Below, in pieces: positions 29,063 to 51,082 of a stretch of 64,000 nucleotides of DNA (its first letter is position 1; each line of letters begins with the position of its first letter). This DNA is from Polaromonas sp. 39-63-25 (GTDB lineage: Bacteria > Pseudomonadota > Gammaproteobacteria > Burkholderiales > Burkholderiaceae_C). The stretch spans positions 1 through 64,000 of the forward strand of contig NZ_NCJH01000009.1 of assembly GCF_002278925.1 (NCBI RefSeq), written 5' to 3'. A program made the position numbers and the translations under genes. Under the pieces are notes generated by a model that was not told the origin of the DNA, ran no database searches, and saw only the letters and a list, made by a program, of their open reading frames with translations.

Positions 29063-30619
29063 TCAGGCGGCGCGCCCGGGCGCGATCAGCGCGTCCAGCA
29101 CCCCCGCGTCGAAATTCCGCCCGATGTAGTCGGCCAGCCCCTCAAACACCGACTCCAGCGTCGGCGTGCTGGCCCCGAACAGCGCTTGCAACACGGCCGG
29201 GTCTTCAAACAGTCCGTGCAGGTAGACGCCCAGTACATGGCCGCTGCCGTTTTGCCAGGCCAGCCCAGCGGGCAGCACGGCGTGCGCCACATCGCCAGCC
29301 GCGGCCATGGCGCTGTGCGGCGCGGTCTGTCCGTGATGGATTTCGTAGCCCTGCACCTCCACACCCGACAAGGCCGCCCAGGGCCCGGCAACCGACGCAA
29401 AACGCGCCCGCCGGTGCTGCACGGTCTTGTCGGCTTCGAACAGCGTGACCACCGGCAGCAGTCCCAGGCCGGGTCCGTTGCCGTCGATGCCGTGCGGATC
29501 GATCAGCGCTTCGCCCAGCATCTGCAGTCCGCCGCAAATGCCGAGCACCGCCCCGCCGCGCCCGGCGTGCGCGGCAATCGCACTGTCCAGCCCCCGATCG
29601 CGCAGCCAGGCCAGGTCGCCACTCGTGTGTTTGGAGCCGGGCAGGATGATCCAGTCGGAGGCCGCAAGACCCGCCAGCTCGCCCGGACTGCGCACCCACT
29701 TCAGGCGGATGCCCGGCACATTCTTGAGCGGCTGGAATTCGTCGAGGTTGCTGATGCGCGGGTAGGCAATCACCGCCACCGTTCGGGTCACGTGGCCGGT
29801 GGCCTGGCTTCTGTCGTCGAAGACACCGTCTTCCTCGGGCAGGCCGTGTTGCCACCACATCGGCAAGGTCGCCACCGTGGGCACGCCGGTCAGGTCCTGC
29901 AGCATCTGCGGGCCGGGGGCGAGCAGGCTGGCGTCGCCGCGGAACTTGTTGAGCACGAACCCCCTGATCAGCCGGCGCTCCGCTTCGTCGAGCATGGCCC
30001 AGGTGCCGTAGAGGTGCGCAAAGGCGCCGCCGCGGTCGATGTCGGTGACCAGCAGGCAGGCCGCATTGGCGTGTTGCGCGACCCGCATGTTGACGATGTC
30101 GCTGTCCTTGAGGTTGATCTCGGCCGGCGAACCCGCGCCTTCAATCACGACGACGTCGTTTTCTTCCAGCAGCTCGTCGAGGGCCTGCGCGATGACCGGC
30201 CAGACCGAGGCGCTGCGGCCGCGCCAGGCCATGCGCGACAGTTCGGCGTTGACCTGGCCCATCAGGATCACCTGGCTGTGCGTGTCTTTTTCGGGCTTGA
30301 GCAGCAGCGGGTTCATGCGGACTTCAGGGACCGCTTTTGCCGCCAGCGCTTGAAAATATTGCGCGCTGCCGATCTCGCCACCGGCAGACCAATTTTCCGC
30401 CGGGGCGCCCCAAGGAAAATTAGCCCCCTCGGGGGGCAGCGACGACACGCCAGTGCGGAGCGTGGGGGCCACTACCCTGGCGTTGTTGCTCATGTTCTGC
30501 GCCTTGAAGGGCGCGACCTTCAGGCCCTGCCTGGCGTAGTAGCGGCACAGCGCGGTGGTCAGCCAGCTTTTGCCGGCACCGCTGGTGGTACCCAGAACCA
30601 TCACGCTTCTGGCCGTCAT
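29063..30619 (-). CDS. cobQ: Cobyric acid synthase with repeat-derived insertion
   Basis: This is a 518-residue glutamine-dependent amidotransferase that amidates adenosylcobyrinate a,c-diamide at four side chains. The ATG at 30619 overlaps the cobC stop by 4 bp. The P-loop region is VLGTTSGAGKSWLTTALCR, and the C-terminal class I glutaminase has catalytic Cys in GICGGLQMLG. After NMSNNARVVA, homologues continue straight into GGEIGSAQ. Here 28 extra residues (about 51-78, containing SLPPEGANFPWGAP) are encoded by a GC-rich interspersed repeat. It is the last gene of the cobalamin operon. Confidence 0.95.
   Translation of the reverse strand: MTARSVMVLGTTSGAGKSWLTTALCRYYARQGLKVAPFKAQNMSNNARVVAPTLRTGVSSLPPEGANFPWGAPAENWSAGGEIGSAQYFQALAAKAVPEVRMNPLLLKPEKDTHSQVILMGQVNAELSRMAWRGRSASVWPVIAQALDELLEENDVVVIEGAGSPAEINLKDSDIVNMRVAQHANAACLLVTDIDRGGAFAHLYGTWAMLDEAERRLIRGFVLNKFRGDASLLAPGPQMLQDLTGVPTVATLPMWWQHGLPEEDGVFDDRSQATGHVTRTVAVIAYPRISNLDEFQPLKNVPGIRLKWVRSPGELAGLAASDWIILPGSKHTSGDLAWLRDRGLDSAIAAHAGRGGAVLGICGGLQMLGEALIDPHGIDGNGPGLGLLPVVTLFEADKTVQHRRARFASVAGPWAALSGVEVQGYEIHHGQTAPHSAMAAAGDVAHAVLPAGLAWQNGSGHVLGVYLHGLFEDPAVLQALFGASTPTLESVFEGLADYIGRNFDAGVLDALIAPGRAA
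30383..30466 (-). repeat. Interspersed repeat family Q, copy 1, in frame inside cobQ
   Basis: Read on the minus strand it has the blocks CCCCCACGCT, CTGCCCCCCGAGGGGGC and TTTTCCTTGGGGCG. The same blocks occur at 50588-50657 inside the AraC-type gene, and the first two at 48271-48362 between genes. Here the insert is exactly 84 nt (28 codons). It is bordered by GCC on both sides and leaves the cobQ frame intact. Confidence 0.85.
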
Positions 30620-40583: not shown

Positions 40584-40815
40584 CACCGGCTTCCCCGCCA
40601 GTGCATGAGCGTTAAAAACGCCCGGTCCAATGAAAGACGCGCGCGTTCACCTTGTTGGCCGGTATCCGGGCTGACGGAACTGCTCTCATCGCCTTCCCAA
40701 GCGCGTGTTCAGAACGCTCAGTGGCTGATGATGAAAGCTGAATGTGCTCCGAGTCTGAATCTGGGGAGCGACATTCGTCCGTTTACCGTTGCGGGGGCAG
40801 CGCAGGTTAAAAATC
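40584..40815 (-). promoter_or_regulatory. Cobalamin riboswitch with downstream hairpin
   Basis: Read on the minus strand, the aptamer contains GCGCTGCCCCCGCAACGG (40804-40787), CAGCCACTG in the middle, GGGAAGGC (40698-40691) and the B12 box GTCAGCCCGGATACCGGCC (40675-40657). These are the standard conserved blocks in the right order. Further down, CACTGGC/GCCGGTG (40603-40597 with 40590-40584) form a 7-bp hairpin close to the btuB start, a likely expression platform. B12 binding would shut off btuB and the downstream cob genes. This explains most of the gap 40569-40964. Confidence 0.95.
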
Positions 40816-40964
40816 CAGTCGCAATCGGCCCGGGCTGACCCGGTGCGGATGGCCTTGATTCCCTCCTGCTTCCCGTTGAACTGCAGCGTGTGAACCACAC
40901 CGCGAGCACCAACAGACAAGATTCTACGCGCCAAAACCGTGCAAACCCTACAATTGGCGCTGCC

Positions 40965-48270: not shown

Positions 48271-48362
48271 CCGGGGCCGCGGGACTGGCTTTGCCAGACC
48301 GCAGGCGCAGCGGCCCCCTCGGGGGGCAGGAAGCTACACGAAGTGAGCGACCGTGGGGGCCA
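48271..48362 (-). repeat. Interspersed repeat family Q, copy 2 (intergenic)
   Basis: Minus-strand blocks are TGGCCCCCACGGTCGCT, CTGCCCCCCGAGGGGGC and a GC-rich tail ending GCGGCCCCGG. It shares the first two blocks with the copies inside cobQ and the AraC-type gene but has a different tail. It fills most of the space between the TPP enzyme and the small hypothetical gene. Confidence 0.75.
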
Positions 48363-50182: not shown

Positions 50183-51082
50183 ATGGCCCGCAAGCCGCGT
50201 CTTCATTTCATGCCGGTCGGCGACACCGACCCCTTCACGCCCAGCCGCGAGCGCCCGGTGCGCGTGCGGGCGCGCTCCATGCCGGTGGACTCGCACTTCG
50301 AGCCGCATGCCCATGCCTGGGCGCAGCTGGCCTACTGCGCCAGCGGCATCGTGCAGGTCACGGCCGGGCAGAGCCGCCACAAGGCCGATGAAGTCGCCTA
50401 CATCGTGCCGCCCTCGCGCGCGGTGTGGATTGCGCCGGGCGCGCGGCACCACATCACCGTGCTCGAAGCGGCGGAATTCCGCACGCTGTACATCGACGCC
50501 AGCGCCACGCCGGAGGGCTGGCACGGCTGCCGCGTGATCGTTGTCTCTGCCTTGCTGCGTGAAACCATCCGTGCTCTCGATGCCATCGGCCCCCACGCTT
50601 CGCTGCCCCCCGAGGGGGCGCATTTTTCCTTGGGGCGGCCCGGCGGAAAAACCGGCCCCCTGAACCCGCAGCGTGAGCAATTGCTGACCCGCCTGGTACT
50701 GGACGAGCTTCTCCACGCCGACACCCAGGTGCTGGGTGTGCCCCTGCCGAATGCGCAAACCGGCGACAAGCGCCTGCGCGCGCTGTGCGAGGCGGTGCTG
50801 CGCGCACCGTCCGAACGCGCCACGCTGGCCGAGTGGGCCGGGAACATAGGCGCCAGCGAACGCACGGTGGCGCGGCTGTTTCGCGATGAGCTGGGCCTGA
50901 GTTACCAGCAGTGGCGCCAGCAGGCCGTGCTGGCCCACGCCCTGCCCCTGCTGGCGCGCGGCCAGTCCGTCAGCCAGGTGGCCGCCGCCAGCGGCTATGC
51001 CAGCGACAGCGCGTTTTCTGCCATGTTCAAGGCGGCCATGGGCCAGTCACCGAGTCATTTTCAGAACAAAAACAGCCTCTAG
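50183..51082 (+). CDS. AraC-family regulator with repeat-derived insertion
   Basis: This is a 299-residue protein. An N-terminal cupin domain covers about 1-115 (MPVDSHFEPHAHAWAQLAYCASGIVQV, DEVAYIVPPSRAVWIAPGARHHI). A C-terminal AraC HTH follows (about 215-299, TLAEWAGNIGASERTVARLFRDELGLSYQQWRQQ). Residues 136-158 (HASLPPEGAHFSLGRPGG) are encoded by a Q-family repeat inserted in frame between the domains. The last residues and stop lie in an R-family repeat. It is divergent from the MFS gene and probably controls it. Confidence 0.9.
   Translation: MARKPRLHFMPVGDTDPFTPSRERPVRVRARSMPVDSHFEPHAHAWAQLAYCASGIVQVTAGQSRHKADEVAYIVPPSRAVWIAPGARHHITVLEAAEFRTLYIDASATPEGWHGCRVIVVSALLRETIRALDAIGPHASLPPEGAHFSLGRPGGKTGPLNPQREQLLTRLVLDELLHADTQVLGVPLPNAQTGDKRLRALCEAVLRAPSERATLAEWAGNIGASERTVARLFRDELGLSYQQWRQQAVLAHALPLLARGQSVSQVAAASGYASDSAFSAMFKAAMGQSPSHFQNKNSL
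50588..50657 (+). repeat. Interspersed repeat family Q, copy 3, in frame inside AraC-type gene
   Basis: The blocks are GGCCCCCACGCT, CTGCCCCCCGAGGGGGC and TTTTCCTTGGGGCGGCCCGG. It is read in the same frame as the cobQ copy through LPPEGA. The open reading frame is kept. It is placed in the linker between the cupin and DNA-binding domains. Confidence 0.85.

Follow-up and report, generated by a model that had tools for sequence, protein, structure and literature searches.

The Beta-proteobacterial Repeat Element (BRE) is described, in the accessible text of PMC3110155, as an element of approximately 90 bp (75-91 bp at full length) with a mean G+C content of 69%, which occurs in Bordetella and the Comamonadaceae, is commonest in Polaromonas sp. 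JS666, and forms tandem copies that are mainly intergenic, some lying 'entirely within coding sequences'. Two other systems are precedents for repeats that invade proteins. The Rickettsia palindromic elements, of 105-146 bp, have entered numerous conserved proteins of unrelated kinds without breaking the frame (accessible text of PMC2229807 and PMC10969869). Intragenic REPs, which bear GTAG/CGTC tags and measure 20-40 bp, lie inside ORFs and have been judged partly by shorter homologues, with insertion at about the same site in recB of two Xanthomonas species (accessible text of PMC3733652).

The repeat considered here lies in cobQ of a Polaromonas genome, within a window of 64,000 nucleotides that represents the whole stretch of DNA analysed. 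It was described by a covariance model, R1, of 81 positions, built from 10 copies of this genome and 22 of its relatives, 32 in all. As far as the accessible text of PMC3110155 describes BRE, the two share length and high G+C content (0.70 for the cobQ copy), host range, with R1 present in 10 of 12 named genomes tested and no match in Derxia or Tepidimonas alkaliphilus, and habitat, copies being in tandem (three at locus L226), mostly outside genes and in some cases wholly coding. A Bordetella MAG yielded 19 matches, and the 14 copies read there were 70-82 nt long, some slightly under the published BRE length, with a mean G+C content of 0.72 (range 0.634-0.800). A motif search for a neighbouring lexA gene, a weak test of identity with BRE, found none in these 14 loci. 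The likeness is one of length, G+C content, hosts and habitat as described, the BRE sequence itself standing in a figure and the supplement of that paper. Matched on description, the repeat probably belongs to this already named family. The earlier note knew of no described equivalent in the Comamonadaceae, a statement that gives way to BRE on the fit of the ~90-bp descriptions rather than of the sequences, and its label 'Q-family' has no counterpart that was found in print. The accessible BRE text names no host protein and describes neither a reading frame nor a comparison with empty sites.

With the Rickettsia palindromic elements, as the accessible accounts describe them, the repeat shares in-frame insertion into several unrelated conserved proteins, with empty homologues in the three hosts compared (cobQ, thrC and the carboxylase), but it lies mostly outside genes, often just past stop codons, and the likeness is by description and not by sequence; the parallel drawn in the earlier note holds as an analogy and fails as membership. 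From the REPs of the accessible text it differs in its length of ~80 bp, its start GCCCCCAC and its lack of a GTAG or CGTC tag. Mobilisation by a RAYT was considered and rejected in this genome, where Y1_Tnp has a single match and the region of this sole Y1 transposase (L082, ~2.5 kb on each side) is without an R1 copy. As to MITE features, the inverted repeats observed in the element are its internal hairpins and the GCC border of the cobQ insert is its own start. Since all 32 aligned copies begin [GA]CCCCCACG, the left GCC belongs to the element, and the GCC on both sides is no sign of a target duplication. Term searches of PMC12306157, PMC2817692 and PMC5217627 brought up nothing on the present repeat, and among the top-ranked matches listed in searches of open-access literature there was no account of in-frame protein invasion in the Comamonadaceae. 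Recurrent parallel invasion, proof from empty sites and a bias of peptide frame were not found in print in these searches.

The cobQ insert and its hairpins

The host gene cobQ (cobyric acid synthase) occupies 29066-30619 on the reverse strand as an uninterrupted reading frame of 518 codons plus stop, with CbiA and GATase_3 domains. The earlier note had proposed that a mobile repeat added 28 in-frame codons to it, and this is borne out by the genome-wide repeat (at least 128 R1 matches) and the open cobQ frame. Within the borders given there, the 84 bp at 30383-30466 (reverse strand) encode PTLRTGVSSLPPEGANFPWGAPAENWSA, flanked in CobQ by NARVVA and GGEIGSAQ and missing from 43 of 96 readable homologues. 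The natural repeat unit is about 30386-30469 (reverse strand), a type A copy with three hairpins that starts GCCCCCACGCT at 30469; its 5' edge was placed from the alignment of 32 copies, its 3' edge is diffuse, and the R1 match extends from 30469 to 30389 (92.1 bits). The repeat consensus is GCCCCCACGCT..CACT.CGTGT..TCGCTGCCCCCCGAGGGGGCTAATTTTCCTTGGGGCGGCCCGGCGGAAAATTG, some 80 bp with three hairpins, and ends at about GGAAAATTG. No Rfam covariance model matched window positions 30250-30600, up to an E value of 1. A third copy in the window, at 48286-48360 on the reverse strand (R1, 45.9 bits), is not classed as lying within a gene. A cobalamin riboswitch (RF00174, 64.8 bits) lies at 40640-40928, on the same strand as cobQ and ~10 kb upstream of it.

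Hairpin 2, at 30423-30437 (reverse strand), corresponds to consensus helix 2 and consists of a GCCCCCCGAGGGGGC hairpin followed by TAATTTTCC; it is translated in cobQ and is terminator-like by a consensus scan, a call that says nothing on function. Hairpin 3, at 30391-30421 (reverse strand), has the arms AATTTTCC and GGAAAATT, which vary among copies yet tend to remain complementary. In its helix, both partners had changed in 50 cells, where shuffles averaged 16.6 and none of 500 reached that number, and 8 pairs were changed on both sides against 5.5 (reached by 7 of 500 shuffles), while sliding the partners by up to 3 columns left at most 14 double-change cells. Arm pairing was 6.22 of 8 against 4.41 of 8 shuffled for 40 of the 58 in-gene copies, after exclusion of copies that were type B, long or otherwise unfit, or duplicate, and 6.50 against 5.05 pairs for 14 type A copies of this genome. 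The cobQ copy alone folds little better than shuffles (z -1.30 as DNA, -1.18 as RNA), and the case for structure therefore rests on covariation.

Copies across the genome and in other proteins

The cobQ insert DNA gave at least 41 BLAST matches in its own genome (40 of 123 candidates scored), and R1 gave at least 128 at E ≤ 1e-3 (150 of 3697 first-look candidates scored). A BLAST match to the repeat was present in 36 of 37 genomes of the same genus and in 1 of 24 from other families. By a pattern rule, 118 of the 128 own-genome copies comprised 21 of type A (the cobQ type), 91 of type B and 6 that were unclear.

More than half of these copies (62 of 118) lie no further than 30 nt past the stop codon of a predicted gene on the same strand. 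Of the 118 copies, 86 have a predicted gene end that points at them, with its stop within 250 nt on either side or both; among 600 random window positions, 103 do. On the copy's own strand there were 64 (median distance 4 nt), and in the opposite sense 38, only 2 of them within 30 nt. Post-stop copies in gene orientation resemble terminators or 3'-UTR elements. A census by a coding model of hexamers, with the ORFs of the window as its training set, covered the same number of copies (118 of 128) and classed 78 in no gene, 35 at an edge, 4 in frame (cobQ, PutA, AraC-like and ABC ATPase) and 1 as frame-broken (L187), whereas 1500 random 81-nt window segments gave 824 in frame, 77 frame-broken, 471 at an edge, 124 in none and 4 with a stop. 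Copies are therefore depleted from genes (4 of 118 against 824 of 1500 in frame) by a census that is conservative, having classed the Pfam-supported L055, L059, L060, L065, L070 and L077 as 'edge' and left uncounted the two tandem copies of a FemAB-like ORF. Plasmids and phages were rejected as carriers, only 4 of 72,556 plasmid records matching, at 60-80% identity, and no phage.

Candidate ORFs spanning the repeat numbered 60, of which 45 were scanned with Pfam. Matches flanked or spanned the repeat in 18, representing 16 kinds of protein; 21 were free of domains, many being on the wrong strand, and 6 (L061, L063, L186, L189, L191, L197) had a domain that did not place the repeat inside the protein and stand outside the host count. 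Threonine synthase and biotin carboxylase were hosts in two genomes each. The 14 further host proteins are, in this genome besides cobQ, PutA, an AraC-family regulator, a FemAB-like protein and an ABC ATPase, and elsewhere PhzC-PhzF, an APH-family kinase, IlvD/Edd, an EF-Tu-like GTPase, UvrA, a formyltransferase, an RlmI-like methyltransferase (our own reading of the name), a DEAD helicase, hydantoinase B and phosphoglucose isomerase. The AraC-family regulator carries a shortened, in-frame copy (66 nt) at 50589-50654 on the forward strand of the window (R1, 64 bits), between its ligand-binding and HTH domains (Pfam on L198). Two tandem copies are in frame in the ORF with the FemAB-like domain (own genome, C25:54123-54297; L206, L253), and three head-to-tail copies lie in a 558-codon open frame in which no Pfam domain was found (L054).

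Four of the six frames of the repeat consensus are open. The hosts cobQ, thrC and the carboxylase together hold 58 copies, of which the 34 in the same orientation as the gene all begin in the APTL frame, and the 24 opposite ones, read towards that same edge of the repeat, all finish in the SVG frame or a variant (SVE, TVG, SAG). The middle of opposite copies reads mostly APSGGS or near, with L004, L109 and L150 shifted to PPRGAG. When each protein and orientation was counted once and judged by the central part of the repeat, which gave 18 combinations, 8 of 8 in the same orientation read LPP.G and 7 of 10 in the opposite orientation read APSGGS or near, the exceptions being PutA and the ABC ATPase, which read otherwise, and cobQ, which is mixed. 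If the two open frames of each orientation were equally likely, at least 15 of 18 would have a probability of ~0.004, by a criterion chosen post hoc. A strict claim that all copies use two frames was rejected on recount. The seldom-used frames are arginine-rich.

Filled and empty sites in relatives

The position of the insert in the window's cobQ (site 1) was scanned in 104 cobQ loci, of which 3 were without the anchor and 5 unreadable. The 96 readable loci comprised 43 with the exact short form (30 nt), 37 with native loops of 42-69 nt, 14 with the R1 repeat and 2 with a different repeat that has no R1 match (L168, L169). Since 37 of 96 loci have native loops of 42-69 nt, the loop evidently varies in length even without a repeat. 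Of the 21 cobQ genes from the same genus, 15 are exactly empty, 5 filled and 1 variant. Homologues lacking exactly 28 residues, to which the earlier note had looked for support, are thus found both across the readable loci and within the genus; the residues are not universal under purifying selection, and the repeat has further copies. Insert orientation at site 1 goes both ways, with differing hairpin arms.

R1 was also run over 99 loci, namely 98 from the cobQ searches plus the transposase region, with cobQ loci L025-L028 and L171-L176 left out. Of 34 matches, 2 were elsewhere and 32 in cobQ, divided between site 1 (15 copies in 14 loci) and a second, interdomain site (17 copies in 16 loci). 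This site 2, at about residues 264-275, corresponds to approximately 29795-29830 (reverse strand, from residue numbers) and is empty in the window. Several site-2 copies coincide with loss of a native DDRS segment. On a quick cobQ tree of 102 rows with insert columns removed, parsimony, which is blind to gain versus loss, gave 14 changes for the 14 filled rows at site 1, at least 8 of them forced by well-supported branches, and 10 changes for the 15 filled rows at site 2, at least 4 forced. The nearest cobQ to this genome by tree path, that of G004, has no insert at site 1 and carries one at site 2. Another relative, G032, has the same insert and the same 3' tail as the window's cobQ, and the two genomes therefore probably share one insertion event. 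The tree leaves open the branching order of this genome (G000), G004 and G032, and does not settle that of the trio L001, L002 and the empty L017.

Empty homologues were compared for three hosts, cobQ, thrC and the carboxylase. Threonine synthase matched in 56 of 61 genomes of the same genus, and 16 rows read through the site, 8 with R1, 3 with another repeat and 5 with neither; the remaining rows listed are fragments or broken at the site. The other repeat, of the PLPPGEGRGEG type, has no R1 match there (L289, L296, L299). Biotin carboxylase matched in 61 of 61 genomes, with R1 in 16 of the best 30 loci. These counts are not prevalences, because insert-bearing queries rank filled genes first. 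In this genome itself the rows for thrC and for the carboxylase are both broken at the site. The trees of the two proteins gave 6 changes each, with at least 4 forced for thrC (8 of 30 rows filled) and at least 3 for the carboxylase (16 of 30).

Origin and fate of the insert

Taken together, these data make it very likely that what entered cobQ is one copy of a small BRE-type mobile element, probably non-autonomous, in a permissive loop. Copies of the element usually lie just past a stop codon, oriented like the gene, and its movement would need an enzyme supplied in trans. Occasional copies enter a gene, in the cases seen at permissive loops or interdomain linkers and with the frame kept, and are mostly translated into a peptide rich in Pro, Gly, Ser and Ala. 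On this reading, the loop of CobQ that joins predicted beta-strands 47-50 and 81-84 has gained 28 residues from such an insertion. An AlphaFold2 model (30 rows, mean pLDDT 83.5) places residues 55-78 between these strands at pLDDT below 50, and the block holding site 2, between the CbiA and GATase_3 domains, has a mean of 53, low values that may partly stem from the thin alignment there, in which few of the 30 rows bear the insert. The 28 residues are probably, on this model, a disordered loop, and a CobQ that carries them presumably still works. A search of solved structures by CobQ sequence returned the amidotransferase domain only, and the top Foldseek matches, CTP synthases and amidotransferases, did not inform on the loop.

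That the insert is useful, as a mobile terminator with hairpins that translating ribosomes hold open in the cobQ mRNA, so that the operon is attenuated when translation falters, appears unlikely. The terminator-like hairpin at 30437-30423 (19 such sites in 12.1 kb against 8.5 expected), the complementary hairpin-3 arms of in-gene copies (40 of 58 used) and the habit of typical copies of lying directly past stops would fit this reading. So would the slow change of the insert: between G000 and G032 only 2 of 84 nt differ (dN 0.017, dS 0.045), against 147 of 1443 nt in the rest of cobQ (dN 0.039, dS 0.368), with 1 and 95 synonymous codon changes respectively. About 8.6 differences would be expected in the insert, and no more than 2 would arise with a Poisson probability of about 0.009, which counts against a freely drifting passenger and points either to constraint at the DNA or RNA level or to conversion of the insert by copies elsewhere. 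Conversion may explain the low divergence, however, and the element is patchy among cobQ genes, stands in the opposite orientation in 24 of 58 in-gene copies, and in cobQ has an ordinary RNA folding energy (z -1.18). A decaying gene or an assembly error is highly implausible as the source of the insert. One internal stop is present in each of three insert-bearing relatives (L003, L018, L097), as it is in four insert-free loci (L117, L146, L166, L172), but the window's cobQ is open throughout, retains all residues invariant over 30 homologues, evolves at a core dN/dS of about 0.11 and shares its insert with G032.

Recurrence at fixed positions might reflect DNA targets recognised by the mobilising enzyme. 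One gene, cobQ, has two sites in repeated use, and the 5' junction TTTGATATG[GA]CCCCCACG is alike at site 2 in seven loci (L017, L019, L023, L107, L127, L132, L138), a likeness that common descent may also explain. Recognition of this kind is nevertheless doubtful, given that site 1 holds both orientations and that a repeat unmatched by R1 stands at the thrC site in three loci and at cobQ site 1 in two. The presence of a different repeat at two of the same sites leads us to prefer survival in permissive loops, rather than site-specific targeting, as the maker of the hot spots. A single old insertion per site, inherited and then lost many times, is quite unlikely, even though parsimony does not separate gain from loss and the site-2 rows do cluster, needing 10 changes where shuffled labels need 14.3 and none of 500 shuffles came so low; at site 1 the rows are unclustered (14 changes against a shuffled mean of 13.4), the copies have opposite orientations and different arms, and the clean empty form persists in 43 loci.

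To the preferred reading of a mobile element in a permissive loop, a wider proposal can be added only tentatively: that the element is a mobile terminator translatable on either strand, at home just past stop codons, which in genes would mostly be read as an innocuous Pro/Gly/Ser/Ala linker while ribosomes hold its hairpins open. If true, a mobile-terminator element would again and again supply conserved enzymes with new loops, family-wide. Rickettsia offers the best-known cases of small repeats invading proteins; Polaromonas and other Comamonadaceae now show such invasion in conserved enzymes, where many filled and empty genes at fixed sites make testable whether the inserts are neutral, why certain frames survive better than others and whether such repeats supply new protein loops.
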